DNA of 50,476 bases from Alphaproteobacteria bacterium (GTDB lineage: Bacteria; Pseudomonadota; Alphaproteobacteria; ATCC43930; CGMCC-115725): assembly GCA_030041335.1 (NCBI GenBank), contig JASHOB010000130.1, forward strand, positions 1 through 50,476. Reading direction: 5' to 3'. The stretch's first letter is position 1. Each line of letters starts with the position of its first letter. This document shows, in pieces, positions 635 through 36,566 of the stretch. Under the pieces are notes generated by a model. The model searched no databases. It had not been told where the DNA came from and saw nothing but the letters and a program-made list of their open reading frames with translations. Position numbers and translations under genes: made by a program.

Positions 635-932
635 AAGAAATGGTGGTTTTTGGTCCCCTGCTTGCTGGGAAGCAGGGTTGGCGCGATTGACGGCAGCACG
701 CTCATTTTCTGAACAACACTGCATTGGACGCATCATCACGCAAGAATCTTGATGCCTTTCGACTCTTCGGCCGGTTTCATTCCTTCGCGGTGGCGTATCC
801 GAAACGACGAGTAACATCGTTGCCAAGAGACGGATCGAAACCGCGCAAAAGAAACCAACTGCATGGCACACACTTTGCAGCGCCTCTTGCCAACGATTGG
901 CGTGACAACACTGCTGGCGAGGCAAGGTGACG
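635..932. other. Leader region of the amide-transport operon, no gene seen
   Basis: About 300 bases between the membrane-protein remnant and the binding-protein gene. The open frames here show no recognisable protein. It presumably holds the operon promoter, but I could not pick a convincing -35/-10 pair or an operator palindrome. Confidence 0.4.
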
Positions 933-2171: not shown

Positions 2172-2244
2172 CCTGGGAAGAGCCCCGCGGCAAGATCAGG
2201 ACTGTGCCGTCCGTACCCAGTTGAGTGTGTAAGAGGAGCTTGCC

Positions 2245-5574: not shown

Positions 5575-5590
5575 CCAGGGAGCTGACGCG

Positions 5591-7105: not shown

Positions 7106-7140
7106 CTCTGCCCAAGATTTTTCAGCGAGAGGAGCTCGCC

Positions 7141-7848
7141 ATGCACAAGATCGAGATTCCCGGCGCCATCATCGACCGGATCAAGGCGTCGCGTCACAGC
7201 CTTCACATTTTCGAGGACGTCGATCCGACGAAAACCGCGCACATCATTGTCGATCTGCAAAACGGTTTCATGGCGCCGGGCCAGCCGGTAGAGATCACAA
7301 CCGCGCGCGAGATCGTGCCGAACGTCAACAGCATCTCCAGGGCGCTGCGCGCGGCCGGCGGCATCAACGTCTTTATCCAATATGTCGTCAATGACGGTGC
7401 CAGGAAGGCCTGGTCGAGCTGGTACGAGCGTTTCTTCAACAACGAGCGCCGCGCCGCGATCGACGCGTGCTTTGCCGAGGGCGCTTATGGCTGGCAGCTC
7501 TGGCCTGAACTCGACGTGCAGCCGAGCGACCTAGTCGTGCAAAAGACGCGTTTCGGCGCGTTTGTGCCCGGCTCGTCCGATCTGCACGAGATTCTTCAGG
7601 CGCGCGGCGTCGACACGCTGATCATCACCGGCACGGCCACGAACGTGTGTTGCGAATCCACCGCGCGCGACGCCATGCAGATGAATTACAAGGTGATCTT
7701 CGTCGCGGACGGTAACGCCGCCAGCACCGACGCCGAGCACAACGCGACCCTCTCGAACATGGCCGCGATCTTTGCCGACGTGATGACCGCAGACGAGGTC
7801 GTGGGCTGTTTGGCCAAAGCGATGCCCATCGAGCAGGCCGCCGAATAG
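7141..7848 (+). CDS. Isochorismatase-family cysteine hydrolase (copy 1)
   Basis: Cysteine hydrolase of 235 aa with the family triad Asp38 (IIVDLQNGF), Lys135 (VVQKTRF) and Cys170 (GTATNVCCES). This family includes nicotinamidase, N-carbamoylsarcosine amidase and ureidoacrylate (RutB) hydrolases, so an amide or carbamoyl substrate is expected. The start ATG follows GAGAGGAG. It lies 35 bases after the amidase stop and 4 bases before a second, clearly related copy. The two proteins keep the same motif order and probably act on successive or related substrates. Confidence 0.88.
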   Translation: MHKIEIPGAIIDRIKASRHSLHIFEDVDPTKTAHIIVDLQNGFMAPGQPVEITTAREIVPNVNSISRALRAAGGINVFIQYVVNDGARKAWSSWYERFFNNERRAAIDACFAEGAYGWQLWPELDVQPSDLVVQKTRFGAFVPGSSDLHEILQARGVDTLIITGTATNVCCESTARDAMQMNYKVIFVADGNAASTDAEHNATLSNMAAIFADVMTADEVVGCLAKAMPIEQAAE

Positions 7849-7852
7849 GGCG

Positions 7853-8551
7853 ATGCACCGGTTCACGTTGCCACAAGATGCGATCGCACGCGCCGTGGCC
7901 AACCGCGGCGCGGCGCACGTCTTTGGCAAGCTTGATCCGGCGCACACGGCACTGATCGTCATCGACATGCAGAACTACTTCGTTGCTCCCGGTTATCAAG
8001 GCGAAGTCCCGATGGCGCGTGAAATCGTGCCGGCGATTAACCGGCTCGCGGCGTCGATGCGAGCGGCGGGCGGGCGCGTGGTCTGGGTGCAAAACAGCAC
8101 CGACGATACGCGACAATCATGGTCGGTGGTGCACGACCATCTGATGACGCCCGAGCGGCGTGAGCGGCGCTGGGCGACCATGGACGAAAGCGATCCCGGC
8201 TTTCAGCTCTGGCCCGCGCTCGACGTCCAAGCCGGCGACGACCGCATCGTCAAAAAACGCTACAGCGCCTTTCTCCAGGGCGCCTCGCCGATCGAGCCGC
8301 ACTTGCGCGGTCATGGTGTCGACACGCTGCTGTTCACTGGCACCGCAACCAATGTTTGCTGCGAAAGTTCGGCGCGGGACGCGATGATGCTGAATTTCAA
8401 GGTGGTGATGATCAGTGACGGCTGCGCCGCCAATAGCGACGAGATGCATGCGGCGTCTCTGCTTGGCTTCTATGCGATTTTCGGCGACGTGCTCACGGTC
8501 GACGAGGCGATCGCCGGCCTCCGCGTTGCCTCCATTCCGACCGCGGCGTGA
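7853..8551 (+). CDS. Isochorismatase-family cysteine hydrolase (copy 2)
   Basis: Second cysteine hydrolase (232 aa) with Asp38 (IVIDMQNYF), Lys134 (IVKKRYSAF) and Cys169 (GTATNVCCES). It aligns with the preceding gene along its whole length, including shared 'AREIVP' and 'FGDVLT/FADVMT' blocks, so the pair arose by tandem duplication and then diverged. It is the last gene of the plus-strand operon and its end is only 8 bases from the convergent asparaginase-like gene. Residues that read like RutB are present but not decisive; the substrate is unknown. Confidence 0.88.
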   Translation: MHRFTLPQDAIARAVANRGAAHVFGKLDPAHTALIVIDMQNYFVAPGYQGEVPMAREIVPAINRLAASMRAAGGRVVWVQNSTDDTRQSWSVVHDHLMTPERRERRWATMDESDPGFQLWPALDVQAGDDRIVKKRYSAFLQGASPIEPHLRGHGVDTLLFTGTATNVCCESSARDAMMLNFKVVMISDGCAANSDEMHAASLLGFYAIFGDVLTVDEAIAGLRVASIPTAA

Positions 8552-11887: not shown

Positions 11888-12850
11888 ATGAACGGCAAGA
11901 TCGGTCTCGAAGAGCATTTCGCCATTCCGGAAACGATGCGCGATTCCCTGGGGTTCGCGGGTCCGTCCTTGATGACCGATTTGGGGCCGCGGCTGACCGA
12001 TTTACACGATCAGCGCCTTGGCCTCATGGACCGGTACGGCATCGAGGTCATGATCTTGTCGCTCAACGCACCGGCGATCCAGCGTATCGGCGATGCCCAA
12101 CATGCGGCCGAAATCGCACGCCGTGCCAACGATCATCTCGCTTCCGAGATCGCGAAACGACCGGATCGTTTTCGCGGCTTTGCGGCACTGCCGATGCAGG
12201 ATGCCGAAGCCGCGGCGGCCGAATTTCGTCGTTGCGTTCAGGAACTCGGCTTCGTAGGCGCGATGGTCAACGGTTATTCCGAGGTCGGGGGCCGTGACAA
12301 TTGTGTCTATTATGATGGCAAATCTTACTGGCCGTTCTGGAGCGAAGTCGAGACGCTGGGCGTGCCGTTCTATCTCCATCCTCGGGAGCCGAGCCAGCTC
12401 AAGCCCTATGAAGGCCACCCCTGGCTGATCGGCCCGGCCTATGGGTTCGCCGCCGAAACCGGTCTTCATGCGTTGCGATTGATGGGGTGCGGGCTATTCG
12501 ACGCCTATCCGCGCCTCACGATCGTCATCGGCCATATGGGCGAAGGCCTGACGTTCAATTTGAGCCGCATCGACCAGCGCATTTCCTGGGCGCCTGCAGG
12601 CTATCCGGCGAAGAGAAAAATCTCAGAATATTTTGCGCAGAATTTCTACCTCACTACCTCGGGACACTTCCGCGACCAGGCGCTGATCAACGCGATCCTC
12701 GAGGTCGGCGCTGACCGCATTCTGTTCTCGACTGATTACCCGTTCGAGGACGTCGGCGAGGCTGCCACTTGGTTCGACCACGCGAGCATTAGCGAGGCGG
12801 ACCGCCTCAAGATCGGCCGCGATAACGCCAAGCGCCTGTTCAAGCTGTAA
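11888..12850 (+). CDS. Gamma-resorcylate decarboxylase-like amidohydrolase
   Basis: Metal-dependent decarboxylase of the ACMSD/amidohydrolase-2 family (320 aa). The match to rhizobial 2,6-dihydroxybenzoate (gamma-resorcylate) decarboxylase runs end to end: GLEEHFAIPET at the start, 'RPDRFRGFAALPMQD', 'PFYLHPREP', 'GHMGEGL' and 'ILFSTDYPFE'. Expected zinc ligands are Glu8, His164 and Asp283, with His216 near the active site. It would convert gamma-resorcylate to resorcinol reversibly. ATG 11888 follows CAGGAGAAACC. The resorcinol hydroxylase and ring-cleavage genes that accompany known gra operons are not next to it, so the true substrate may differ. Confidence 0.85.
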   Translation: MNGKIGLEEHFAIPETMRDSLGFAGPSLMTDLGPRLTDLHDQRLGLMDRYGIEVMILSLNAPAIQRIGDAQHAAEIARRANDHLASEIAKRPDRFRGFAALPMQDAEAAAAEFRRCVQELGFVGAMVNGYSEVGGRDNCVYYDGKSYWPFWSEVETLGVPFYLHPREPSQLKPYEGHPWLIGPAYGFAAETGLHALRLMGCGLFDAYPRLTIVIGHMGEGLTFNLSRIDQRISWAPAGYPAKRKISEYFAQNFYLTTSGHFRDQALINAILEVGADRILFSTDYPFEDVGEAATWFDHASISEADRLKIGRDNAKRLFKL

Positions 12851-12970: not shown

Positions 12971-14065
12971 CTAGTCGAGCAGTTGGGGAAGAACCTTGCG
13001 GGCATAGAGTTCGACCGAGTGAAGCGTACGCTCGCCGAGTTCGAATGCGGGTATGAGGTCGAAAATGCCGGCACCAAGTTGGCGCCGGATACGGTTCGCT
13101 TGAGCGACCACCGTCGCTGGGCCGCCGATCATGACTTGGCCGAGATCGACGCGATCCGCGAGCGTCGGAGTGCGGCGGTTGCGTGCCCGCTGGTTCGCAT
13201 GGTCCGCGCCGTAATAGCCCGTCCCGGCGATGACGGCCTCGAGCGCCTGGTTGGCCAGGACGGGGCTGCCGCGTTGGCGACGCGCATGGCTCGCCTCAAA
13301 ATCCGCAACGGCTTGTTCGTCACTATCCGCGACATGAAAACCGAGCCGATAGAGAATGTTGGTTGGTTGCGGCTGCCAGCCGACGCGCGCCGCTTCGTCG
13401 CGGTAGCGCTTCACCGCCTCGGTAGCGAGCGGCAAGGTAGTGACCGCCAACGCCAAGCTCACCTGTTGCCTCGCTGCGAACACGGCGGACTCGGGGCTTG
13501 AGCCCGACATGTAGATCGGCGGGTGCGGTTGTTGCACCGGGCGCGGCCATACCGCTATCGAACGAAAGGAAAAATAGCGCCCCTGCCAACCGAAGGGCTG
13601 GCTCTGCGTCCAGGCCTCGCGAATCAATTGGAATGCTTCCTCGAATCGAGGCCGTGATTCCGATGGATTTATGTTGTAGGTGACGTTTTCGTTCGGGGTA
13701 CCGCGCAGCATCCCGGCGACGATGCGACCGTTGGTCATGGTGTCGAGCATCGCGACTTCTTCGGCGACGCGTACCGGATTAAGCATCGGAATCAACGAGC
13801 CCAGCAGCGCGATCTTCGCCCGCTTTACCACTTGGGTCATGGCGCCGGCGAACACAGTCGGATTGGGCGTCAGCGAGAACGGCCCGAAATGATGCTCGGT
13901 CAGGCCAACCCAGTCATAACCCAGCTCGTCGGCTAGCCGAAACTGATCGAGTGCCGTCTTCATCGAACGATCGGCTTCCTCGGCCAAATAGCCGGCGCTC
14001 GGGGTCGGCCAGCCGCTGGTAACGGCACCCAGGTAAAAGACGGGCGATGTGAATGAAGCCAACAT
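12971..14065 (-). CDS. Luciferase-like (LLM class) flavin-dependent monooxygenase
   Basis: 364 aa with the TIM-barrel pattern of bacterial luciferase-type monooxygenases. The 'LGYDWVGLTEHHF' block (about 48-60), 'NPVRVAEEVAMLDTMTNGRIVAGM' region and 'PPIYMSGSSPES' are classic FMN-binding landmarks. Such enzymes use reduced flavin from a partner reductase to oxidise or desulfurise small organics; no reductase gene is adjacent. It is divergent from the FAD hydroxylase gene and convergent with the decarboxylase. ATG 14065 has no strong ribosome site. Two further LLM genes lie at the far end of the window. Confidence 0.85.
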   Translation of the reverse strand: MLASFTSPVFYLGAVTSGWPTPSAGYLAEEADRSMKTALDQFRLADELGYDWVGLTEHHFGPFSLTPNPTVFAGAMTQVVKRAKIALLGSLIPMLNPVRVAEEVAMLDTMTNGRIVAGMLRGTPNENVTYNINPSESRPRFEEAFQLIREAWTQSQPFGWQGRYFSFRSIAVWPRPVQQPHPPIYMSGSSPESAVFAARQQVSLALAVTTLPLATEAVKRYRDEAARVGWQPQPTNILYRLGFHVADSDEQAVADFEASHARRQRGSPVLANQALEAVIAGTGYYGADHANQRARNRRTPTLADRVDLGQVMIGGPATVVAQANRIRRQLGAGIFDLIPAFELGERTLHSVELYARKVLPQLLD

Positions 14066-14327: not shown

Positions 14328-15533
14328 GTGGCACGATCGTTGCGCATCGGCGTGATCGGCGGTGGCATTGGCGGTCTGGCGGCGGCACGCGCGATGCTGA
14401 TGCGCGGGATGGAGGTCGTTGTTTTTGAGCAAGCCTCAGGCCTGATCGAATTTGGCGGAGGCCTTGTGCTCACGCCAAACGCGCTTACCGCGCTGCGCGC
14501 GCTCGGTCTGGAAGAGCGTGCCCTTGCCGACGGATTTGAGTCGACGGGCCAGGTCGTTCGCAGTTGGCGCAGTGGTCGCGTGATTCTGCGCAATTCATTT
14601 GAGCGCTACCGCGCATTATTCGGCGCCACTAGTGCGACTATCCATCGCGGCGATATGCAGAAGTTGCTTGCGGCGTTTGTCCCCGAGAGCGCCCTCCGGC
14701 TGGCGTCGCGCTGCACCGAAGTCGAATCCCGACCGCACGCCGGGGTCGCGCACTTTGCCGATGGCAGCGAGTTTGAAGCGGACGTTGTCGTCGGTGCGGA
14801 CGGGATTCATTCTGCCGTACGTTCGAGCGTATTTGGTCCGCAAAACCCCCATTTCACCGGCTTGATGTGTTGGCGCGGCCTGGTGGATTCGAGGCGGCTG
14901 CCGGGGCTCGTTCCGCCCGAGCAGAGCGCCTGGTGGGGACCTCACGGCCATGTCGTGCACTATTACGTGCGGCGTGGCGAGCTGTTGAACTGGGTCGCCC
15001 ATATCGAGACCGACAGCTGGACCGAAGAGTCCTGGTCGACCCCGGGCTACGCGCCCGAGCTACGCGCCACCTACAAACATTGGAACCATCAGCTCACAAG
15101 GATATTCGAGGTAACCGAGCACTGCTACAAATGGGCGCTCTATGATCGCGAGCCGCTCCGGGAATGGAGTCGTGGTCGCGTGACCCTGCTCGGCGATTCT
15201 GCGCACGCAATGCTGCCCTACCTCGCTCAAGGCGCCGCCCAGTCGATCGAGGACGCCTGCGTCTTGGCGGCTGTGCTGGCGGACGCGCCGGAAGAACCCG
15301 AGGCTGCGCTCAAGCGCTACGAGGGTCTGCGTCTGCCCCGCACCAGTAGGATTCAGCTCGGCGCGCGCGAACGGGGGCGCATCAATCACCTGAGCTCGCG
15401 GTGGTCGCGTTTTAGACGCGACGCGAGCATCGCCTGCCGCAATTGGATCGGCGCAAAAACTGGGCCCCAGGACCTTGCCTGGATCTATGGGTACGACGCA
15501 GGCAACGTGCCAACTGGAGAATTGGCCGCCTGA
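14328..15533 (+). CDS. FAD-dependent aromatic monooxygenase (salicylate hydroxylase-like)
   Basis: Flavoprotein hydroxylase of 401 aa. The ADP-binding motif GVIGGGIGGLAAA lies at 8-20, with the FAD acidic residue at FEQA. The DG motif is VVVGADGIHSAVR and the GD motif is VTLLGDSAHAMLPYLAQGAAQ. These define class A flavin monooxygenases that hydroxylate aromatic rings with NAD(P)H and oxygen, such as salicylate or 6-hydroxynicotinate hydroxylases. The GTG at 14328 is the family-consistent start. Given the nearby resorcylate-type decarboxylase, a phenolic acid or phenol substrate is plausible but not proven. Confidence 0.85.
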   Translation: MARSLRIGVIGGGIGGLAAARAMLMRGMEVVVFEQASGLIEFGGGLVLTPNALTALRALGLEERALADGFESTGQVVRSWRSGRVILRNSFERYRALFGATSATIHRGDMQKLLAAFVPESALRLASRCTEVESRPHAGVAHFADGSEFEADVVVGADGIHSAVRSSVFGPQNPHFTGLMCWRGLVDSRRLPGLVPPEQSAWWGPHGHVVHYYVRRGELLNWVAHIETDSWTEESWSTPGYAPELRATYKHWNHQLTRIFEVTEHCYKWALYDREPLREWSRGRVTLLGDSAHAMLPYLAQGAAQSIEDACVLAAVLADAPEEPEAALKRYEGLRLPRTSRIQLGARERGRINHLSSRWSRFRRDASIACRNWIGAKTGPQDLAWIYGYDAGNVPTGELAA

Positions 15534-27228: not shown

Positions 27229-27303
27229 TCGGCTATGGTTCGCCACTTGAGTTAGCTCATCAGATATCGAGTAGGCAAGTTGGCGGGTTGACTCGCGCAA
27301 GGC

Positions 27304-27333
27304 AAACATTTAAACACGTTTTAAAACATGTTT
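27304..27333. promoter_or_regulatory. Palindrome-rich operator candidate upstream of the MetE-like gene
   Basis: A 30-base AT-rich stretch beginning AAACAT and ending ATGTTT, with nested TTTAAA blocks and a perfect GTTTTAAAAC palindrome. It sits just before the AGGAGGGG ribosome site. It shares GTTTTAAAACAYGT with the operator candidate at 11789-11814, and lies in the spacer shared with a divergent TetR gene. Confidence 0.6.
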
Positions 27334-27347
27334 CAATAGGAGGGGTC

Positions 27348-28562
27348 ATGAAGCGCAGCATCGGCCGCATCCTCACGACCCATGCCGGAAGCCTGATCAG
27401 GCCGCCGGAAATTGTCGAGGCAATGATCCGGGATCATTTGCGCGAACCGGTCGACACGGAGCGCTTCGAAAGCGATCTCGCAAATGCGGTGCGAGACGTC
27501 GCCAAGCAACAGGCGGAAGTCGGTGTCGATATCATCGACGACGGGGAGTTCGGCAAGAGCAGCTGGGTGGCTTACGTGTCCGAACGCCTCGAGGGCCTGG
27601 CGCCCATGACGTTCACGCGGGAGATGCTGGCAGCTCCGTCGCCGGTCTTTCCGGAGCAGGACCGCTTCGCTGGTTTCTACCGGACATACAGCAAATATGA
27701 ATCGACGATGTGGCTTCCGGAGACACCGTCGAAAGCGCGCTACGACGGCAACCAAATGACCGAGTATGCGAAGGTCGTCTGCACCGGCCCGCTGCGCTAC
27801 AAGCCCGAGGCGCTGCAGCGCGACATTGCCAATTTCAAGGCGGCGCTCAAGGAGCTCGATATCGAAGAGGCCTTCATGCCCGTCGTTGCACCGGCCAGCA
27901 TCGAGATCATCCCCAATCGCCATTACAAGACGCGCGAGGAATACCTTTTCGCCAGTGCCGACGCGCTTAGCACCGAATACAAGATGATCGTCGATGCCGG
28001 ATTCCTGCTGCAAGTCGACGATGCGATTCTGCCGATGCAACGCTTCATGAGGTTCGCCGGCAAGGACGTCGGTGAGTACCGCGACTGGGCGCGGCTGCGC
28101 ATCGATGCGCTGAACCATGCCCTCGGTGGCATTCCGGAAGATCGCATCCGGTACCACATCTGCTTCGGTAGCCAGAATGTCCCGCACACGAGCGACGCAC
28201 CATTGGCAGAAGTCCTCGATCTCGTTCTGCAAGTCACGGCGCAAGCCTATTCGATCGAGGCCAGCAATCCGCGTCATGAACATGAATGGCAGATCTGGAG
28301 CGAGACAAAGCTGCCCGACGGCAAGATCCTGATTCCGGGCGTCGTCAATCACGCCACCAACATCGTGGAGCATCCCGAACTGATCGCGCTGAGGCTTCGG
28401 AACTTTGCCGGGCTGGTCGGGCGCGAGAACGTAATCGCAGGGACGGACTGTGGCTTCTCGCAAAGCTGGAACTCACCCCGGGTCCATCCGGAAGTTCAGT
28501 GGGCAAAGCTCGCAGCACTGGTCGAAGGCGCACACCTCGCCTCGCGACGGCTTTGGACGTGA
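27348..28562 (+). CDS. MetE C-terminal-like (cobalamin-independent methionine synthase fold) protein
   Basis: 404 aa with a single TIM barrel like the catalytic half of MetE and like epoxyalkane:coenzyme M transferase. The zinc ligands are all visible: His270 and Cys272 (RYHICFG), Glu304 (YSIEASNPRHEHE) and Cys368 (GTDCGF). The N-terminal 'TTHAGSLIRP' is the usual family opening. Such single-domain proteins activate thiols, for example in alkyl transfer, or cleave C-S or C-C bonds; a methionine synthase role is unlikely without the N-terminal half. The strong AGGAGGGG site and a 25-base gap to the carotenoid oxygenase gene show an operon. Confidence 0.82.
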   Translation: MKRSIGRILTTHAGSLIRPPEIVEAMIRDHLREPVDTERFESDLANAVRDVAKQQAEVGVDIIDDGEFGKSSWVAYVSERLEGLAPMTFTREMLAAPSPVFPEQDRFAGFYRTYSKYESTMWLPETPSKARYDGNQMTEYAKVVCTGPLRYKPEALQRDIANFKAALKELDIEEAFMPVVAPASIEIIPNRHYKTREEYLFASADALSTEYKMIVDAGFLLQVDDAILPMQRFMRFAGKDVGEYRDWARLRIDALNHALGGIPEDRIRYHICFGSQNVPHTSDAPLAEVLDLVLQVTAQAYSIEASNPRHEHEWQIWSETKLPDGKILIPGVVNHATNIVEHPELIALRLRNFAGLVGRENVIAGTDCGFSQSWNSPRVHPEVQWAKLAALVEGAHLASRRLWT

Positions 28563-28587
28563 GGTCAACGCAGAGGAGGAACGCGCC

Positions 28588-30036
28588 ATGGGTGAGCCAG
28601 TCAGATTTCCCGATGTCGCAGTTTACACCGGGTTCAACCAGACGGTACGTGCGGAGACCGACGTCCGCGACCTGGAGATCACGCAAGGCGCCATTCCCGA
28701 CGCCTTCGCGGGCACCCTCTATCGCGTCGGACCCGACCCGCGCTATCCGGCGCATCTTGGCGACGACGAGTGGACCAACGGCGACGGGCATGTTGTGATG
28801 TTCCGGTTCGAGGACGGCCACGTCGACCTCAAGACGCGCTACGTCCGCACCGAGCGCTTCCTGTTGGAGGAGAAAGCACGAAAATCTCTGTTCGGGCGCT
28901 ACCGCAACACCTACACTAACGATCCAAGCGTCGCCGGCGCGTCGAACGGCACCGCGAACACCAACGTCATTTGGCACGGCGGCAAGCTGCTGGCGCTCAA
29001 GGAAGACTCGCTGCCGATCGAACTCGACCCCGACACACTCGCGACTAAAGCGAGCTGGAACTACGACGGGCGCATGACGGCGCGTTGCATGACAGCGCAC
29101 CCGAAACTCGACACGTCAACGGGTGAACTACTCAGCTTCTCGTTCCAGGCGCGCGGCGATGGCACCACCGATTTCGCCTATTGGGTGATCGACAAGCACG
29201 GCAAGATCACGCACGAAACCTGGTTCCAAGCTCCCTACCCGGGTTGGGTCCATGATTTCGCGATAACCGAGGAGCACGTCGTCTTTCCGATGACGCCCAT
29301 GATTACCGACCTCGAGGTGCTCAAGAAGGGCGGGCCGTTTTATCAGTACCATCCTGACAAGGAGTATCATTTCGCCGTCATGCCCCGCCACGGCACCGCC
29401 GCGGATGTGCGCTGGTTCCGCGGACCGTCCGGAAGTGCCGGGCACATGGTCAACGCCTTCACCGAAGGGACGAAGGTCCATCTCGATATTTGTCTGGCCG
29501 AGGGCGTGGCCGTCCTTCCCTTCATTCCAAAGGTAGATGGCACATTTTGCGATCCGGTACCGCCGCAGATCACGCGGCTTACCTTCGACATGAAGGGCAA
29601 CAGCGACCGGTACACAAAGCACCTGCTTGTGCGGCGACCAGGCGAGATGCCGCAGACCGATCCTCGCTACCAGGGACGGCCCTATCGTCATGCCTACTTC
29701 CTGGCGTTGGGACCGGTTGGCCTGGACGGCGCCGGCTTGGCTCATGTCGACCTTACGACGAGCAAGGAAGAGGTCTGGGATTGCGGCAAGGGCACTACCT
29801 TGCACGAACCTCAGTTCGTGCCACGTCGGACGGATGCGGCCGAAGGCGATGGCTGGATCGTCGTAATCCACGACCGCCGTCCCGAGGGTCATGCCAACCT
29901 GCTGATTTTCGATGCACAGAGGGTCGCCGCCGGCCCGGTCGCCACGATTCGGCTGCCGATGCGCGTGCGCTGCACCTTCCATGGCATGTGGGTGCCGGAG
30001 AGCGCTCTTCGGACAATGGAGCCTCAGCATGCCTGA
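28588..30036 (+). CDS. Carotenoid oxygenase (RPE65/CCD) family dioxygenase
   Basis: 482 aa seven-bladed propeller of the carotenoid cleavage dioxygenase family. The four iron-ligand histidines are present: His171 (MTAHPKLD), His222 (GWVHDFAITEEH), His286 (SAGHMVNAF) and His465 (CTFHGMW). These enzymes split C=C bonds with oxygen; bacterial members include lignostilbene and isoeugenol dioxygenases, so an aromatic alkene substrate is as likely as a carotenoid. ATG follows GAGGAGGA. It is the second gene of an operon with the MetE-like protein, an unusual pair. Confidence 0.88.
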   Translation: MGEPVRFPDVAVYTGFNQTVRAETDVRDLEITQGAIPDAFAGTLYRVGPDPRYPAHLGDDEWTNGDGHVVMFRFEDGHVDLKTRYVRTERFLLEEKARKSLFGRYRNTYTNDPSVAGASNGTANTNVIWHGGKLLALKEDSLPIELDPDTLATKASWNYDGRMTARCMTAHPKLDTSTGELLSFSFQARGDGTTDFAYWVIDKHGKITHETWFQAPYPGWVHDFAITEEHVVFPMTPMITDLEVLKKGGPFYQYHPDKEYHFAVMPRHGTAADVRWFRGPSGSAGHMVNAFTEGTKVHLDICLAEGVAVLPFIPKVDGTFCDPVPPQITRLTFDMKGNSDRYTKHLLVRRPGEMPQTDPRYQGRPYRHAYFLALGPVGLDGAGLAHVDLTTSKEEVWDCGKGTTLHEPQFVPRRTDAAEGDGWIVVIHDRRPEGHANLLIFDAQRVAAGPVATIRLPMRVRCTFHGMWVPESALRTMEPQHA

Positions 30037-30130: not shown

Positions 30131-30967
30131 TCAGAGCGATCTGTAACCGCCGCCAAGCCAAGACACGAGCGCCTCGGCGTACGCGGAGAAGGCCTCTTCC
30201 CAGATGCGATGTTGGGCATCGAGTAGCAAGTAGCGATTGCGTGGAAGCCGGTCGGCCAGGAACTGCCCATTCGCGGGCGGTACGATAGGGTCATCCTTGC
30301 CCGCGATGATCAGCACGGGCGTGTTGATGCCGAAGAGCAGCGGTTCGAGCTTCGGAAGGTCGCCGACGTATCCCCGAACATATTGGACGGCCTCTTCGAA
30401 CCGTCGGCCGGCCGAAGCTGCTCGGAAGTCTTCGATGATCGCGGCGGGTGTGATTTGCGCCGCGTGCGCCAGGTAGTCTTTCACGGCGTCTGCGCCGTCG
30501 ATATTCGCAAGTGTACCCGGCGGCGAATTGATGAGATTCCGTAGCCTGTCGCCGGCGAGATCGGGCCTCATGGCAGCGCTACCGACCACTAGGCTTTCGA
30601 AAAGATCTTGTCTCTTCGCCGCAGCGAACAGGACCGCGAGTGTGCCGACATCGGGCGACACGGCATGCGCGCGGCGGACGCCAAAGTGCTTGAGCAGGGA
30701 AACCATGAACTCGCCCATCGCCGCCGGCGCCATGATATCCGATCGGCTCTGCGACCCACCGAAGCCCGGTAGATCAACCATGATCAAGGGGTGCTTGGAA
30801 ACGAGCCGCGGTGCCACCCGATGAAACGCGTAGATGCTCTCGGGCCACGGCGCCGTCAGCAGAATGGGGAGGCCATCGCCGGGCCCGCTCCGGGCGTAGC
30901 GAACGGACAGGCCATCCACCTCGACGGTGGCCACCTTTCCAATGTTTGGCAGCGTGCCGGTGCTCAT
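30131..30967 (-). CDS. Alpha/beta hydrolase with Asp nucleophile (epoxide hydrolase/dehalogenase-like)
   Basis: 278 aa. The nucleophile elbow reads VSPDVGT with Asp106 where esterases have Ser, the pattern of epoxide hydrolases and haloalkane/fluoroacetate dehalogenases. The other triad members fit: Asp225/226 in GKDDPIV and His253 in AQHRIW. The HGxP oxyanion motif is replaced by 'APWPES'. The family shape is clear, but the reaction (epoxide opening, dehalogenation) is not. It lies downstream of an SDR gene on the same strand with a small orphan frame between, and is convergent with the carotenoid oxygenase gene. Confidence 0.75.
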   Translation of the reverse strand: MSTGTLPNIGKVATVEVDGLSVRYARSGPGDGLPILLTAPWPESIYAFHRVAPRLVSKHPLIMVDLPGFGGSQSRSDIMAPAAMGEFMVSLLKHFGVRRAHAVSPDVGTLAVLFAAAKRQDLFESLVVGSAAMRPDLAGDRLRNLINSPPGTLANIDGADAVKDYLAHAAQITPAAIIEDFRAASAGRRFEEAVQYVRGYVGDLPKLEPLLFGINTPVLIIAGKDDPIVPPANGQFLADRLPRNRYLLLDAQHRIWEEAFSAYAEALVSWLGGGYRSL

Positions 30968-30997
30968 AGACCACTCCGTCCGACCGGATTGTGATGA

Positions 30998-31225
30998 TCA
31001 TCCAACTGCACTGCTGACACCCGTCGCAATCGGTCGGCATGTCGGGCGACAGATGTCGGATAGAAACGTGCCCGTTAGGAGCCGCGCCGCATAGCCTTTA
31101 AACTTGACGGCGGCGCCGAGATCGGATGCGGCCACCTCCTGCAGAGTGTCGCCGAAGGTGTAAATCGCGGTACGAACCGGCCCAGCAAAGATGACCGAGC
31201 ATGGTAATGTCACGGGAGCCTCCAT
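30998..31225 (-). CDS. Small uncharacterised ORF between SDR and hydrolase
   Basis: 75 aa frame beginning MEAPVTLPCSVIFAGPVRT, with a rhythm reminiscent of the C-terminal blade of SMP-30/gluconolactonase proteins (C..FAG...RT.Y). That similarity is weak and based on memory. AGGAG lies only two bases before the ATG, which is too close to be ideal. It may be a genuine small protein, a remnant, or noncoding spacer of about 280 bases. Confidence 0.3.
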   Translation of the reverse strand: MEAPVTLPCSVIFAGPVRTAIYTFGDTLQEVAASDLGAAVKFKGYAARLLTGTFLSDICRPTCRPIATGVSSAVG

Positions 31226-31251
31226 GGCTCCTGGCCGGCGACACCAACGCT

Positions 31252-32028
31252 TCAGAAATTCTCCTTATAGGGTCTGAGATCGAGCTCGAAGCTCCAGGCT
31301 GACCGCGCCTGCCGATGGATCTGCCAATAGGCTTCGGCGATAGCGTCAATGCCTAGAAGTCCGTCCTCCCCACGCTGCTGCACGAGCTCGGGATATCGGC
31401 TGAGCAGACGTTCGCCGTTGATCCCGCCGTCGATGACGATATGCGCGACATGGATCCCTTGCGGGCCGAACTCGCGCGCCATGCTCTGCGCGATGGCCCG
31501 CAGCCCTGCTTTGGCGGCGGCGAAATGCGCGAAACCGGGCTTACCGCGCAGGCTTGCCGAGGCACCGGTGAAGATCACGGTGCCGCGCCCCAGGGGCACC
31601 AGACGGCGCGCCGCTTCCCGGCCGACCAGAAAGCCGCCCAGGCAGCCGACGCGCCAGAATTTCTCGAAGGTCTCGGCGCTCAATTCGCGGAAGTCGAGTC
31701 GCTGATTGTTTCCGGCGTTGTAGACGACGAGATCCGCGGGGCTGAACCGACGTCCCGATGCCATGGCACGATCGAACAGACTCCCGACGTCTTTCTCGCT
31801 GGTCACATCGGCCATCACCGCTTCGGCGCTTCCGCCAGCAGACCCGATCGCGCGGACGATGGCGTCAAGTTTGACAGCGGTCCGGCCGGCGACCAGTACA
31901 TGATATCCTTCGGTGGCAAAGCGGCGGCACAGCGCCGCGCCGAGACCTTGCTCGGCCCCCACGCCGATAACGACTGCGGTCGGGATCAACTTCTCGCCTT
32001 CTGCCTCTTCGCCGCTCATCCGGTTCAC
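31252..32028 (-). CDS. SDR-fold protein lacking the catalytic tyrosine
   Basis: 258 aa. The nucleotide motif is a variant (VIGVGAEQGLGAALC), NAG becomes YNAGNN, and the active-site segment is 'GASASLRGKPGFAHFAAAKAG': Ser and Lys are kept but the Tyr of the YxxxK motif is Phe. An SDR subgroup with Phe at that place is known (SDR_c10-like in CDD, from memory). Ordinary NAD(P)H oxidoreduction through Tyr is therefore doubtful; a binding or altered-chemistry role is possible. It is divergent from the DapA-like gene. Start taken at the first Met; a shorter start at residue 4 is possible. Confidence 0.8.
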   Translation of the reverse strand: MNRMSGEEAEGEKLIPTAVVIGVGAEQGLGAALCRRFATEGYHVLVAGRTAVKLDAIVRAIGSAGGSAEAVMADVTSEKDVGSLFDRAMASGRRFSPADLVVYNAGNNQRLDFRELSAETFEKFWRVGCLGGFLVGREAARRLVPLGRGTVIFTGASASLRGKPGFAHFAAAKAGLRAIAQSMAREFGPQGIHVAHIVIDGGINGERLLSRYPELVQQRGEDGLLGIDAIAEAYWQIHRQARSAWSFELDLRPYKENF

Positions 32029-32397
32029 CTTCGCTCACACCCGTCACAGATTCCCGATTTCAACAGGGTCGCCGCGGTCGGCGCCGCGAGCAGCCGGGAC
32101 CGAAACATGCTACCGCCCGTCGGACAAGCCCGCCACCGCGCTGGTTCAAACCGGCTGTGCATCGTTTGCTCACCGACAATGCAACCCTCTCCACTGCCGG
32201 TCTTCAGTTACATGCATATGCACCTACTTTAGGCTTAGTTACGCCTGTGTCAAGGAAGGACCTTCGGGAGATCTCGACTGGAGCCGTAACGCAAAAAAAG
32301 CAATTGCTTTATGATTTCACGAGGTCGGAATATTGGCCGGTCCAAATGAAGAACACTCGAGGCACCCACGTATGCGGTTGGCATGCAGGAGCGTCGG
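32029..32397. other. Divergent promoter region
   Basis: About 370 bases between the SDR gene and the DapA-like gene, AT-richer toward the right. A perfect 10-base palindrome TGCATATGCA (32213-32222) is the only clear regulatory-looking element. No small gene is convincing. Confidence 0.4.
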
Positions 32398-33381
32398 ATG
32401 AAATACCGTCGAAAAGAAGCCAAGGATTATGCGCGTGAGAACATGAGGGGAATTTGGGCGGCTGCAATGACGCCGTTCAATCCCGATTTGTCGCTCGATG
32501 AAAACGGTTATCTGCATAATATGCGGCATTGGGTAATTGACTTGAAGATTGACGGTCTCTTCGTTTCGGGCAAGCAAGGTGAATTCTCGTCCATGTCGTT
32601 TGCCGAGCGGCAGCGATCATTCGAGTTGGCGGTCGAAGCGACGAAGGGCTGCGCTTCAACCATTATGTCATGCTCCGATCAGAACATTGAAACGGTTGTC
32701 GAATTAGCAAAGTACGCGGAGGCCGTGGGGGGCGACTATGTCGTCATTCATGCCCCCGTGCTCTATTTCTTCGAAGCTCAAGACCAGACGGTGTACGAAT
32801 ATTACAGGTACATCAGCGAGCAAATTGATATCGGCATTGCTATGTGGAGTCATCCGGACAGCGGGTATCTCATGAGCCCTGAGTTGTGCACGAGAATTGC
32901 CGAACTGCCTAATATCGTTGCCATCAAGTACAGCGTACCGCGACAAATGTATGCGCGGTTGACCCATTTAGCACGAGACCGGCTAATCGTGAGCACGGCC
33001 TCCGAGGCTGAGTGGCTTGATAACATCGTTGAACTGGGTTGGCAGGTGTATCTGTGTTCGACTCCGCCATATTTGATGCAAACGAAGACGGATTTGCGCA
33101 TGCGCGAATATACTGATTTGGCGATGCGCGGTGATGTAAAGCGCGCGAGAATCGTGCGGAACAGTCTCGATCCGGTTCGCGCGGCGCTTAAGGAAACGCG
33201 GCCGCCGGAGAAACCGCAGGCTCATCAAAAGTACTGGCAGGAACTCTTAGGGCAGGTAGGGGGGCCGACCCGGAGACCACAAATTCAACTGACGGATGCA
33301 GAAAAGGCCGCGACGAGGGCCGCATTTGAAAACTGCGGTCTTCGCCGGGGCATCGACGCACCGCGAATCTCGGTCGTTTGA
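32398..33381 (+). CDS. DapA-family lyase/aldolase (dihydrodipicolinate synthase superfamily)
   Basis: 327 aa TIM barrel. The substrate loop reads FVSGKQGEFSSMS in place of GTTGE, and the Schiff-base lysine is in IVAIKYSVP. Tyr residues in 'HAPVLYFFE' lie where the family keeps its proton-relay Tyr. Pyruvate-dependent aldol cleavage or hydratase-aldolase activity, as in naphthalene-pathway enzymes of this family, is likely. ATG 32398 has AGGAG 6 bases ahead; an ATG 15 bases upstream is poorer. The C-terminus is longer than in DapA. It is 31 bases from the dioxygenase gene and shares its lower GC content. Confidence 0.82.
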   Translation: MKYRRKEAKDYARENMRGIWAAAMTPFNPDLSLDENGYLHNMRHWVIDLKIDGLFVSGKQGEFSSMSFAERQRSFELAVEATKGCASTIMSCSDQNIETVVELAKYAEAVGGDYVVIHAPVLYFFEAQDQTVYEYYRYISEQIDIGIAMWSHPDSGYLMSPELCTRIAELPNIVAIKYSVPRQMYARLTHLARDRLIVSTASEAEWLDNIVELGWQVYLCSTPPYLMQTKTDLRMREYTDLAMRGDVKRARIVRNSLDPVRAALKETRPPEKPQAHQKYWQELLGQVGGPTRRPQIQLTDAEKAATRAAFENCGLRRGIDAPRISVV

Positions 33382-33412
33382 CCGTAACCAGACTGCAAAT
33401 GAGGGGAAATCC

Positions 33413-33976
33413 ATGAACGCGTGGTCTTCGCCATTTAACTTTAACCGGTGGATAGACGCTAACGCGCATTTGCTCAAGCCGCCGGTTGGCAACAGGTTGT
33501 TGTTCGAGGGCGCGGACATGGTAGTGCAAGTCATCGGTGGTCCGAATCAGCGTGTCGACTTCCACGACGATCCTGTTGAAGAATTCTTTTATCAGCTACG
33601 TGGCGACATGATTCTTAAGGTCGTCGAAGGGGGTCGGATCATCGATGTTCCTATTAGTGAAGGGGAGATATTTCTCGCTCCGGCTCATCTTCGCCACTCG
33701 CCCCAACGGCCGATTCCTGGTTCGATCGGTCTGGTGGTAGAAAGTGCCCGGCGCCCAGGTGACCTTGATGGCTTTGAATGGTATTGCTTCTCGTGCGGTG
33801 ATTTGGTGCATCGCGTGGAAGTAGCCATAACCAACATTGTGACTGATCTTCCCCCGCTTTTTTCGTCCTTCTATGCCGATCAACGAGCACGAACATGCTC
33901 GCGCTGTGGGGCGATTCATCCAGGTAAGGAACCACCGGCTAACTGGGTGCGAATGGGCTCCCCCGGCGGACAATAG
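33413..33976 (+). CDS. nbaC: 3-hydroxyanthranilate 3,4-dioxygenase
   Basis: 187 aa cupin dioxygenase that opens the ring of 3-hydroxyanthranilate to 2-amino-3-carboxymuconate semialdehyde. Iron ligands His51, Glu57 and His95 and substrate-contact Arg47, Arg99 and Glu110 occur at the same numbers as in the structurally studied Cupriavidus enzyme. The C-terminal rubredoxin-like site is also intact (Cys125, Cys128, Cys162, Cys165). ATG follows GAGGGGAAATCC. No ACMS decarboxylase or aminomuconate genes follow directly; a DapA-family gene precedes it instead, so the downstream route is unusual. Symbol by family. Confidence 0.9.
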   Translation: MNAWSSPFNFNRWIDANAHLLKPPVGNRLLFEGADMVVQVIGGPNQRVDFHDDPVEEFFYQLRGDMILKVVEGGRIIDVPISEGEIFLAPAHLRHSPQRPIPGSIGLVVESARRPGDLDGFEWYCFSCGDLVHRVEVAITNIVTDLPPLFSSFYADQRARTCSRCGAIHPGKEPPANWVRMGSPGGQ

Positions 33977-34369
33977 TGATCCGATATGTAATCCGCTAAA
34001 TACCGTAGGTATCTCATGCTCATGAGGATGCCGCAGACGAGGTTCGTGCGCGCGGGTCGTCTTCGCGCGGTCACGAGTTCTTGCGTCAGCGTTTGACCCT
34101 GAATGACGGAAACGCAGAAGTAAAGTTTCCACGAAGTCGAAGGCGAGGCCTGAGGGGAAATGTCAATCGTTGCGCGGTTAGTGCCCTTACCGGCGGCTCT
34201 CCGGCGCCCTTGCGAGCCTCGGCTGCACAGAAGCATCATGCTCCCGGCGTCGACGAATAAAGAGATCAAGTTTCGACGAGGTGATGCTTGCCGAGCGACG
34301 TTGCCCTGGCAGCCGCGCCTCCGATAGACTCGCCGGTCGCGACGCCGACTGTAAGGAAAGGGAACTGCG
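33977..34369. other. Intergenic region
   Basis: About 390 bases. A long minus-strand frame (33916-34473) crosses it, but it overlaps the two flanking genes and has no recognisable motif. Probably the end of the dioxygenase transcript and the mutarotase promoter. Confidence 0.4.
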
Positions 34370-35278
34370 ATGCGGGCCGAGGAACTCACCGCCGAATTCC
34401 GGATCGCAGGCGTCGTTGACTTCACCGAGACCGAGCACGGGCTCGTCAAAGCGGTGATTTCGCTCGGCGGCATGACAGGCGAGCTCTACCTCCAGGGAGC
34501 ACAGGTCACCGCTTGGCAGCCGGCCGGCGAGCGGCCTGTCCTGTTCACGAGCCCCAACGCCGCGTTCGAGTCGGGCAAAGCGATCCGTGGGGGCATCCCC
34601 ATTATCTTCCCGTGGTTCGGGCCCAGCCGACACTCGCTGACGGCGCCGCAGCACGGTTTCGCGCGCACCGCGACGTGGCGTCTCGATCGGGTCGAGAGGC
34701 TGGCGACCAAGGCGCTAACCCTTACCCTCAGTCTCGGCGATGACGACGTCAGATCGAGATTCTGGCCAGAGCGGTTCCGCGCGATTTACGACGTGACCTT
34801 CGCGCAGACCTTGTCGTTGCGCCTCGCGGTGCAGAACCTCGCGCCCCACGCCATCACCTTCGAAGAGGCGCTACACAGCTACTTCGCAGTTTCCGACGTC
34901 ACTGCCGTTGCGGTTTCCGGACTCGCCGGCACCATCTACATCGACAAGACCCAAGCGAGCCGGCGCGAGCGGCAGACCGCGACGCTCGTCAGCGTTGTGG
35001 CGGAGACTGACTGCGTTTATCTACATACGCCAGCGCGATGCTTCATCGAGGATCGCGGTTGGAACCGCCGGGTCGTAATCGAGAAAAACGGCGCAGCATC
35101 GACAGTAGTGTGGAATCCCGGGGCCGATAAGGCCGCGATGATGGCCGATCTAGGCGATCCCGCTTGGCGCGGCATGGTGTGCGTCGAAGCTGGGAACATT
35201 GCCGACGACGAGGTGAGGCTCGCCGCCGGAGATGAGCACCAGATGTCGACTGTTATCTGGGTGGATGCCGAGCAATGA
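34370..35278 (+). CDS. D-hexose-6-phosphate mutarotase (YeaD-like aldose 1-epimerase)
   Basis: 302 aa beta-sandwich epimerase. 'GAQVTAWQPAGERPVLFTSPNAAFESGKAIRGGIPIIFPWFGP' carries the family's phosphate-contact arginine. Catalytic His is in APQHGFARTA and the catalytic Glu in VCVEAGN. These define glucose-6-phosphate 1-epimerases, which interconvert alpha and beta anomers of hexose-6-phosphates. ATG follows GGAAAGGGAACTGCG. It is monocistronic in this window, though sugar-phosphate genes lie 9-11 kb upstream. Confidence 0.85.
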   Translation: MRAEELTAEFRIAGVVDFTETEHGLVKAVISLGGMTGELYLQGAQVTAWQPAGERPVLFTSPNAAFESGKAIRGGIPIIFPWFGPSRHSLTAPQHGFARTATWRLDRVERLATKALTLTLSLGDDDVRSRFWPERFRAIYDVTFAQTLSLRLAVQNLAPHAITFEEALHSYFAVSDVTAVAVSGLAGTIYIDKTQASRRERQTATLVSVVAETDCVYLHTPARCFIEDRGWNRRVVIEKNGAASTVVWNPGADKAAMMADLGDPAWRGMVCVEAGNIADDEVRLAAGDEHQMSTVIWVDAEQ

Positions 35279-35338
35279 TTCGATCGGCTGCAGAGGGGTG
35301 TGAGGAGTGCGGCCTCACGGGTCGAAACGGGCGCTAGG

Positions 35339-36091
35339 TCAAACCTCCTCGGTCACCAGCCGGCGGTACATTTGCCATTCGAGCTCACCGCCGGGCTTGT
35401 TGCCGCGGCGCTTCTCCATCTGTTGCCAAGTGTGCTGACAGACCACGCGCGACAGAGGGCGCGCCCGACCGCCCGTGGCCATAACGCGCTCCTGCGTCTC
35501 GCAGGCGCGCAGTAGCGTGTCCATGAACACGAAACATTCGCCAATCGTGCGTCCGACCGTGAGCAGGCCGTGATTCTGCATTATCATGGTGAAGCGGTCG
35601 CCGAGGTCGGCAATGATGCGCGGCGCCTCGTCCGCTTCCTCGGCGAGGCCTTCGAACTGATGATAGGCGACCTGACCCCAAATCGCGCAGCCTTCCTGGT
35701 CATAGAGTTGCAGGCCCTCCTCGAGCGCGGAGACCACGACGCCCGCCATCGGATGGAGATGAAGCGTTGCGTTGATATGCGGCTTCGAGCGCAGGATGGC
35801 GCTGTGGAAATTGAGCCCCGCCGGGCCTGGCATGAGCTCGGTCTCGGTCAGCACGCGCCCGTCGAGACCCAGTTTGATGAGGTTGTCGGCCGTGATCTCG
35901 TGCCAGCCGAAGCCGCGCGCATTCATCAGAAATTGGTCGGGGTTGTCCGGCAGCCGTGCGGTCATGTGATTGGAGATCGTGCGGTTCCAGCCGAACCGGT
36001 GCGCGACGCGGAAGGCCGCCGCGAGCTCGCGCCGCGTCTCGCGCTCGCTGGCGCTCATCGATGTGTCGATCGCGGCTAATCTCTTCGCCAT
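35339..36091 (-). CDS. Class II aldolase/adducin-family protein
   Basis: 250 aa. The zinc-binding histidines are visible in 'LHLHPMAGV' and 'MIMQNHGLLTVG', with 'TISNHMTARLPD' and 'GFGWHEIT' as in the family. The catalytic Glu of fuculose-phosphate aldolase is not at its expected place (the segment reads GPAGLNFHSAI), as in the adducin-like subgroup, so aldolase activity is not assured. ATG 36091 is preferred because GAGG lies about 9 bases ahead; ATGs at 36100 and 36106 are alternatives. Convergent with the mutarotase gene. Confidence 0.8.
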   Translation of the reverse strand: MAKRLAAIDTSMSASERETRRELAAAFRVAHRFGWNRTISNHMTARLPDNPDQFLMNARGFGWHEITADNLIKLGLDGRVLTETELMPGPAGLNFHSAILRSKPHINATLHLHPMAGVVVSALEEGLQLYDQEGCAIWGQVAYHQFEGLAEEADEAPRIIADLGDRFTMIMQNHGLLTVGRTIGECFVFMDTLLRACETQERVMATGGRARPLSRVVCQHTWQQMEKRRGNKPGGELEWQMYRRLVTEEV

Positions 36092-36566
36092 CGGAGTCAT
36101 CCTCATGACGTGCGGGAAGCGTCCATCCTATGCCAGGGACGCTCAAGACGCAAAGGAGGCGGTGACGGAGGCCATTGATCGACCCGACCGGCTGAGGCGA
36201 TGTTCTGCGCTATGGCGATGCGCCTGATCCCGCGGCGAGCCGCGGCGAGGTGCTGGTCGACGTTCACGCCGCGGGCGTGGTGAGCACTGGGGGGAGAGGG
36301 TTAAGACCTGGTCCGCAGTGGTGAATATAAGCTTCGGCACATTCGCCGCCGAAAGCGGACTATCTGCTTTCGGCCGGCTTCAGTGATTCTACGCCGCGCC
36401 AATTCACGTCGTTCGTCCGCCCGAGGACGCTCTAGAATCCGGACGTCTGTTGTCAGATGGCAACCACCGCGACGGTCGAGCACAAATTTTCTCCCATCGC
36501 GATCGGCCGACGCGCAAACTGGGGATTGGTGACTATCTTCATAACCCTCTACCTTGGTTCGCGATT
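36092..36566. other. Spacer between aldolase and MFS transporter genes
   Basis: About 475 bases. Part is an open extension of the MFS frame to a TTG at 36450, with non-family sequence. The stretch 36184-36290 reads loosely like an alcohol dehydrogenase start (GDP.PAGEPRRGEVLV.VHAAGV), possibly a tiny remnant. The MFS promoter probably lies here. Confidence 0.35.

Follow-up and report, generated by a model that had tools for sequence, protein, structure and literature searches.

A DapA-like gene adjoining 3-hydroxyanthranilate dioxygenase in Alphaproteobacteria: candidate core of an alternative route for 2-amino-3-carboxymuconate semialdehyde

Introduction

3-Hydroxyanthranilate (3HAA) is a hub of tryptophan breakdown, NAD synthesis and nitroaromatic degradation. 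Its ring-opened form, 2-amino-3-carboxymuconate semialdehyde (ACMS; HOOC-C(NH2)=C(COOH)-CH=CH-CHO), is unstable and becomes quinolinate unless it is enzymatically removed, and the accepted bacterial exit for ACMS is its decarboxylase, ACMSD. In the breakdown of naphthalene and phenanthrene, NahE and PhdJ form a lysine Schiff base with a beta,gamma-unsaturated 2-oxo acid, which they hydrate and then split in a retro-aldol step. Schiff-base chemistry is coupled to loss of CO2 in 5-keto-4-deoxyglucarate dehydratase/decarboxylase (KdgD), in which, according to PMC5114784, the catalytic tyrosine is kept. Here, a 50,476-nucleotide stretch of an alphaproteobacterial genome (GenBank assembly GCA_030041335.1, contig JASHOB010000130.1, positions 1 to 50,476, forward strand; hereafter the window) was analyzed, in which a gene of the DapA superfamily (DAP) stands directly ahead of a gene for 3-hydroxyanthranilate 3,4-dioxygenase (HAO). 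The source genome is a 5.17-Mb draft with a completeness rating of 100%. The large DapA-like family that DAP represents appears to be a second exit for ACMS beside ACMSD, and the DAP-HAO route looks like an unreported shortcut for 3HAA breakdown, centered on an enzyme family of unassigned function; a literature search, for which subscription journals were mostly beyond reach, returned no description of the DAP-HAO pair, of the DAP family or of an ACMSD-free 3HAA route.

Results

An initial annotation of this DNA had described a DapA-like gene ahead of a 3-hydroxyanthranilate dioxygenase gene, and this observation was confirmed, as DAP lies 31 bp upstream of HAO on the same strand (+). The features of the pair are as follows:

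32398..33381, + strand: DAP, 327 aa, a class I Schiff-base enzyme of the DapA superfamily in a family of its own (PF00701, 101 bits; 103-row alignment; AlphaFold model)
33382..33412, + strand: intergenic gap of 31 bp, with a GAGGGG Shine-Dalgarno-like stretch ahead of the HAO start
33413..33976, + strand: HAO, 187 aa, 3-hydroxyanthranilate 3,4-dioxygenase (above cut-off for NF009763 and TIGR03037; gapless against 1YFU)

The DAP open reading frame spans 32383-33381, and the start at 32398 (MKYR) was picked by alignment with orthologs. The short same-strand gap and its Shine-Dalgarno-like stretch would be consistent with a single transcript for the two genes. HAO scored 256 bits against NF009763 (cut-off 220) and 230 bits against TIGR03037 (cut-off 146), and its alignment to the Cupriavidus HAO 1YFU has an E value of 4.6e-71. 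All ten residues R47, H51, E57, H95, R99, E110, C125, C128, C162 and C165 are present in the window HAO; these are the six active-site residues and four rubredoxin-site cysteines that the initial annotation had recognized from the Cupriavidus enzyme, and we take H51, E57 and H95 to be metal ligands, R47, R99 and E110 to serve the substrate, and the cysteines to form the Cys4 site. Given this full conservation, HAO is predicted to convert 3HAA to ACMS.

Across 385 genomes of the class Alphaproteobacteria, a true HAO (150 bits or more) was found in 36, namely in 22 of the 23 genomes with DAP and in 14 of the 362 without it (Fisher 2e-25, kinship ignored); at most five first-look candidates were scored per genome for DAP and ACMSD, and at most eight for HAO. 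DAP was counted at E 1e-80 or better, and the 22 copies other than the window's are 59-74% identical. Within the order, 43 genomes yielded close DAP copies (68-76% identity) in three relatives, the next matches being at 39%. Furthermore, a scan of GTDB genomes with two family motifs returned at least 556 stretches encoding a DAP relative, of which the best 80 were kept; since loci were picked by similarity to the window DAP, distant members of the family are under-sampled. From these 80 loci, 44 entered the searches for ACMSD and kynureninase, and 22 entered those for AMSDH and AmnD (2-aminomuconate semialdehyde dehydrogenase and 2-aminomuconate deaminase). Loci L072 and L073 were set aside because they repeat G017 and G016, and dropping the redundant L051, L052, L055 and L058 left 99 loci; those four stay in the 103-row motif alignment and in the molybdenum hydroxylase and aldehyde dehydrogenase tables. 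Genes in unannotated loci were called with a simple codon model.

In 68 of the 99 loci, HAO follows directly downstream of DAP on the same strand, the two being separated by 9-237 bp (median 73); a further 11 have HAO at another place in the locus, and in three the contig breaks off too early for HAO to be seen. The linkage, whose lack in other genomes the initial annotation had named as speaking against its proposal, is therefore recurrent. In a tree of HAO proteins (quick method, SH-aLRT support), from which HAO fragments and seven rows repeating loci already in the set were left out, a split with a support of 99 separates 81 rows, 78 of them from DAP loci, from 19 rows, among which are all five HAOs linked to ACMSD. 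In the DAP tree, the window's copy falls together with those of G016 and G017, two genomes of the same family, at a support of 97; the HAOs of G016 and G017 belong to the ACMSD-type clade, yet stand directly behind DAP. Because the three DAPs group together while their HAOs fall in opposite clades, one DAP lineage pairs with two HAO lineages, and this partner swap, as read from the trees, would help the case for a functional coupling of DAP to HAO. Chance neighborhood of the two genes was rejected on the recurrence in 68 of 99 loci together with the partner swap. As a separate observation, one subgroup (L056, L057, L058, L141, L142 and L145) has a molybdenum hydroxylase and DAP followed by a methyltransferase-like gene (cluster 18, judged by eye), with no HAO in the locus; in G225, G318 and G395 of this subgroup, an HAO of the other clade is encoded elsewhere in the genome.

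The distribution of the classical route was compared with that of DAP. The amidohydrolase adjoining HAO in G216 was identified as ACMSD by its scores of 437-440 bits against 2hbv and 6mgt, and a true ACMSD was taken as at least 64% identical, the next match in the class survey being at 38%. Complete ACMSD genes were found in five of the 385 genomes (G043, G163, G216, G224 and G340), with a fragment in G266; all five have HAO and no DAP, and none of the 23 DAP genomes yielded an ACMSD. Among the 36 HAO genomes, DAP and ACMSD would fail to overlap by chance with a probability of 0.005 (kinship ignored), and nine of these 36 have neither. ACMSD was likewise found in none of 44 further DAP genomes (best match 36%), of which at least G449 and G463 repeat genomes of the class survey. 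Within the 99 DAP loci, no ortholog of ACMSD (best 30%) or AMSDH (best 39%) was found, and there is one RidA/AmnD-like gene at 56%. AmnD was not found in 44 of 47 DAP genomes and was found in four of the five ACMSD genomes, and RidA and AMSDH are both present in three of the five ACMSD loci. In the window genome, the best ACMSD matches have 28-34% identity (the five best of 27 first-look candidates were scored), AMSDH matches reach only 41-42%, and AmnD has no match at E 1e-20. The initial annotation had noted the decarboxylase and the semialdehyde dehydrogenase as missing beside the pair; at ortholog level they were not seen elsewhere in this genome either, and an ACMSD encoded elsewhere was rejected on that basis, as far as the five scored candidates go. 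The absence of AMSDH failed as a clean test across DAP genomes, since AMSDH-like genes occur in 15 of 47.

DAP stands apart from the named members of its superfamily. None of the NCBIfam equivalogs of the superfamily reached its cut-off with DAP, the best score being 81 bits against 281 for NF003164 (N-acetylneuraminate lyase); TIGR00674 (DapA proper) gave 74 bits (cut-off 206), and TIGR03249 (KdgD) gave 74 bits (cut-off 374). The AlphaFold model (pLDDT, the predicted local distance difference test, 90.6) has the barrel of dihydrodipicolinate synthase (DHDPS) and N-acetylneuraminate lyase (NAL), and matches 5ktl with a VIA-align Z of 35.0 (root-mean-square deviation 2.1, 292 aligned). Profile, modeled (beta/alpha)8 barrel and lysine place DAP in the DapA/NAL superfamily, and the family models place it outside DapA, sialate lyase and KdgD. 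In the alignment of 103 rows (99 non-redundant), G58, K59, Q60, E62, H118, P120, F124, W150, P153, D154, K177, Y178 and S179 are invariant, K177 being the Schiff-base lysine. Both threonines of the GTTGE motif of DapA are Lys-Gln (K59, Q60) in all 103 rows, and the remaining glycine position of that motif varies in at least two. At the position of the TPYY motif, the family has H-[AS]-P-x-[LM]-[HSYN]-F, with Leu at residue 122 in 102 of 103 rows, His (92), Ser (6), Tyr (4, including the window copy) or Asn (1) at residue 123, and Phe at residue 124 throughout. The family is without a conserved tyrosine at TPYY; the window's Tyr123 is adjacent to that position, and the placement of the gap in this loop differs between alignments. 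A true DapA or a sialate lyase was ruled out as the identity of DAP by the NCBIfam cut-offs together with these altered motifs. Two other DapA-like genes were observed in passing. A sister family 39% identical to DAP (L008 and L009; G012 and G013) carries GVMGE and NPYY motifs, with no HAO in the stretches examined, and a different DapA-like gene at L199:1018-1905 (G216), with a GSTGES motif judged by eye, lies directly ahead of a kynureninase-like gene near an ACMSD-type cluster.

Partner genes were clustered over 106 loci. A branched-chain-type ABC transporter occurs in about a third of them (livG-type ATPase in 36, livK in 33), and a LysR gene in 30; two clusters of alpha/beta hydrolases are represented in 18 and 8 loci, respectively. 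Aspartate dehydrogenase is present in 33 of the 99 non-redundant loci, and two representatives pass NF009828. Of the 99 loci, 33 encode a molybdenum hydroxylase large subunit no more than 600 bp from DAP, and 23 encode an aldehyde dehydrogenase (ALDH) that shares 45% identity or more with the one of the cluster; none holds both, where 7.7 would be expected. As both types of enzyme can oxidize aldehydes, oxidation of an aldehyde is probably the step that they have in common. The chains nearest to the molybdenum enzyme, however, are those of CO dehydrogenase and quinoline oxidoreductase, and it stays under every NCBIfam cut-off; the ALDH of the cluster has its closest matches in ketoglutarate- and succinate-semialdehyde dehydrogenases. 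AMSDH was not among the best 60 of the 216 PDB sequences that match the cluster ALDH, and no close copy of this ALDH was found in the window genome (best 36%). The transporter is shared with one ACMSD locus of the five: in G340 the order is AMSDH, RidA, HAO, ACMSD, livKHMGF and one further gene, and its livK and livH recur at 60% identity or more in 28 and 32 of the 99 DAP loci, respectively. As livK and livH match while AMSDH, RidA and ACMSD do not, the G340 locus has its import module in common with DAP operons and differs in the lower module.

Several loci also indicate where 3HAA may come from. A compact operon of DAP, HAO, aspartate dehydrogenase, ALDH and ABC transporter is carried by conjugative plasmids, with annotation, from Sinorhizobium mexicanum and Rhizobium bangladeshense, and close to it lie a PnbB-type gene (PF16155) and the genes of two reductases, one for FMN and one for flavin; PF16155 genes with reductases occur near three DAP loci (L109, L203 and L204). 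This plasmid module resembles the reductase and mutase steps by which 2-nitrobenzoate is converted to 3HAA, with the step order of the onb pathway taken from PMC5817917. Kynureninase is encoded near DAP in five loci (L202, L066, L131, L149 and L138), including Phaeobacter and Stappia, and was above its cut-off in 20 of 44 other DAP genomes. Since both the kynureninase and the PnbB-type contexts point to it, 3HAA is the expected substrate of HAO. For the window genome itself, tryptophan via kynureninase is unsupported as a 3HAA source, because no kynureninase was found there. In PLSDB, 47 plasmid records contain DAP at 60-80% identity; 23 of them come from Phaeobacter, and a conjugative type is assigned to 16 of the 47. 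Among 20 records listed, 18 annotate DAP only as 'dihydrodipicolinate synthase family protein', and the other two list no gene there. Directly upstream of DAP-HAO in L024 (7791-9373; G020) are a Rieske ring-hydroxylating oxygenase and a 116-aa protein without Pfam or NCBIfam match, a pair that is a possible further source of 3HAA; a similar pair (460 and 95 aa) upstream in L089 was matched to it by size only.

The base composition of the pair and the other genes of the window were also examined. GC content averages 60.6% over the window and is 53.6% in the pair (z -3.6), and GC at third codon positions (GC3) is 0.61 in DAP and 0.55 in HAO against 0.66-0.82 in nine neighboring genes, which bears out the earlier remark that the pair is AT-richer than its surroundings. 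In three relatives of the same family, DAP has 61-63% GC, about equal to that of its own loci and hence not GC-poor, and the AT bias therefore belongs to the window genome. No tRNA was found in the window; a search of 30500-36500 for insertion-marking repeats gave no more than three short repeats of 18-20 nt, one direct and two inverted, none of note. One promoter-like and two terminator-like sites lie near the pair, about the number expected by chance. Elsewhere in the window, 927-8551 (+) encodes components of a branched-chain-type ABC transporter (substrate-binding protein and ATPase), behind which an amidase gene and a pair of adjoining isochorismatase-family genes lie on the same strand. 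A gamma-resorcylate decarboxylase-like amidohydrolase (11888-12850, +) stands ahead of a luciferase-like gene (12971-14065, -) and, beyond that, an FAD-binding_3 gene (14328-15533, +), possibly another group for aromatic-acid degradation; by orthology this amidohydrolase was rejected as ACMSD, with 442 bits to 2dvt (gamma-resorcylate decarboxylase) against 61-81 for ACMSD chains. At 27288-30036 (+), a MetE-like gene (Meth_synt_2) precedes an RPE65 gene resembling lignostilbene dioxygenase (517 bits against NF053778, under the cut-off of 800), and the MetE-like gene clusters with the gene directly downstream of HAO in L077, L080 and L113.

Discussion

In all likelihood, DAP acts on the product of HAO in place of ACMSD. 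The initial annotation had proposed that a transferred DapA-HAO pair forms a variant lower pathway, and base composition, linkage and a decarboxylase elsewhere in the genome were all examined with none refuting it. As to what DAP does, we see about an even chance that it cleaves the C3-C4 bond to give oxaloacetate and a C3 aldehyde. In such a pathway, HAO would open 3HAA to ACMS, as its conserved residues predict, and the aldehyde would be oxidized by the NAD aldehyde dehydrogenase or the molybdenum hydroxylase suggested by the partner genes, either before or after DAP; oxidation ahead of DAP would give 2-amino-3-carboxymuconate. After tautomerization, Lys177 of DAP may displace the C2 amine by transimination, freeing ammonia, whereupon water would add to the double bond of the beta,gamma-unsaturated imino acid and the C3-C4 bond would break. 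The products would be oxaloacetate and malonate semialdehyde if the aldehyde is oxidized first, or malondialdehyde in place of the latter if it is oxidized later, and aspartate dehydrogenase could recover the oxaloacetate and the ammonia in the form of aspartate. The scheme is balanced in its atoms (C7H7NO6 + 2 H2O = C4H4O5 + C3H4O3 + NH3). That DAP and HAO form the core of an alternative 3HAA lower pathway replacing ACMSD, AMSDH and AmnD is, as a whole model, a proposition on which we are evenly divided.

The main rival to this cleavage is decarboxylation, in which DAP would be a Schiff-base ACMS decarboxylase and a non-homologous replacement of ACMSD: an imine of Lys177 at C2 would lead to loss of the C3 carboxylate as CO2, and 2-aminomuconate semialdehyde would follow the usual route. 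We consider this unlikely, though it has several points in its favor. ACMSD and DAP were never found together in the genomes surveyed, and the superfamily includes a dehydratase/decarboxylase, KdgD. Acetoacetate decarboxylase works with a lysine pair in which the neighboring lysine lowers the pKa, and the invariant K59 at the first GTTGE threonine would allow such a pair with K177 and may lower its pKa. AMSDH-like genes, which the usual route would employ, occur in 15 of the 47 DAP genomes. Furthermore, the tyrosine that deprotonates the beta carbon in KdgD (PMC5114784) is not conserved in DAP, and decarboxylation would need none. Cleavage is favored over decarboxylation because aspartate dehydrogenase, which decarboxylation would leave without a role, then has a natural one; because AmnD is so rarely found in DAP genomes and so regularly in ACMSD genomes; because the 99 DAP loci have no AMSDH or ACMSD orthologs and a single AmnD-like gene; because the compact plasmid operons hold no other downstream enzyme; and because the closest matches of the cluster ALDH are ketoglutarate- and succinate-semialdehyde dehydrogenases.

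Less probable still, and in our judgment quite improbable, is that DAP subjects the HAO product, or this product once oxidized, to a different reaction (hydration, hydrolytic deamination or an isomerization, so that cyclization to quinolinate is blocked) and that the chain is cut by enzymes encoded elsewhere. The same linkage and exclusivity data would fit this explanation, as would the active-site motifs of DAP, which in the alignment are unlike those of the DapA paralogue and of the 39% sister family, and transimination by itself would free ammonia. However, no further dedicated cleavage enzyme was recognized among the conserved neighbor clusters scanned, and the plasmid operons reduce to DAP, HAO, aspartate dehydrogenase, ALDH and transporter. 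That DAP and HAO are neighbors without a common pathway, through hitch-hiking, shared regulation or an HAO that serves NAD or secondary-metabolite synthesis, is very improbable: it would account for the loci without HAO and for the genes flanking the window pair, most of which do not belong to the conserved operon, but not readily for an HAO in 22 of 23 DAP genomes, an adjacency that persists with HAOs of two clades, or the kynureninase and PnbB-type modules beside some operons.

Returning to C3-C4 cleavage within a shared pathway, a number of observations weigh against it. With regard to coupling, 17 of the 99 DAP loci have no HAO nearby, one DAP genome (G264, a draft of 450 contigs) has no HAO found, HAOs of the DAP-type clade occur in G248 and G007, in which no DAP was found, and within the order DAP is present in four of the nine genomes with a PF06052 match, the other five being incomplete or having a weaker HAO match. 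With regard to the partners, 66 of the 99 loci have no aspartate dehydrogenase in the stretch examined (some stretches end at a contig edge), and 43, the window included, have neither aldehyde-oxidizing gene. Six non-redundant molybdenum hydroxylase loci hold a weaker ALDH match (29-36%), and the exclusivity of the two enzymes is not significant on independent tree pairs (six pairs, p 0.25), which are too few. The AMSDH-like genes noted above are at least 60% identical and lie elsewhere in the genome. Finally, classical aldolase catalysis cannot be assumed with Lys-Gln in place of the threonine pair and no conserved TPYY tyrosine in 103 rows, and the sequence and fold neighbors listed for DAP are DHDPS and sialate lyases, with no known hydratase-aldolase among them. 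The motif objection is tempered by the four rows, the window's among them, with Tyr123 beside the TPYY position, and by a loop gap that depends on the alignment.

With these points taken into account, we put forward, at slightly less than even confidence, a third fate of ACMS, in which a dedicated Schiff-base lyase, with Lys-Gln standing for the DapA threonines and a catalytic tyrosine not conserved, would directly split the C7 chain into oxaloacetate, which becomes aspartate, and a C3 semialdehyde. Together with one aldehyde oxidation, this cleavage would replace ACMSD, AMSDH, the deaminase and the rest of the meta pathway, in a system spread among Alphaproteobacteria and carried partly on conjugative plasmids. 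If this is true, the DAP family would gain a function, the annotation 'dihydrodipicolinate synthase family' would need correction, and a short pathway to C4 and C3 products would exist.

Compared with classical meta-cleavage of 3HAA (the nba/onb and kynurenine routes), the DAP system has the same HAO family, kynureninase or PnbB-type and reductase modules near some of its loci, and, in G340, the DAP-type ABC transporter beside the HAO of an ACMSD locus; it differs in that the DAP genomes surveyed have no ACMSD found and mostly no AmnD, and in that DAP, often with aspartate dehydrogenase and another aldehyde-oxidizing enzyme, adjoins HAO instead. With the DapA/NAL superfamily (PF00701), DAP shares the fold, the Schiff-base lysine and the GxxxE frame, and is set apart by Lys-Gln for the GTTGE threonines, the changed TPYY motif and scores below every equivalog cut-off. 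KdgD offers a precedent within the superfamily for decarboxylation, and differs from DAP in the catalytic tyrosine, which is kept in KdgD (PMC5114784) and is not conserved in DAP. Neither NahE nor PhdJ, to which DAP may still be related, is among the nearest sequence and fold matches listed for DAP; by analogy, their working principle is the one proposed for DAP, whose substrate would differ in being aliphatic, with two or three carboxylates.

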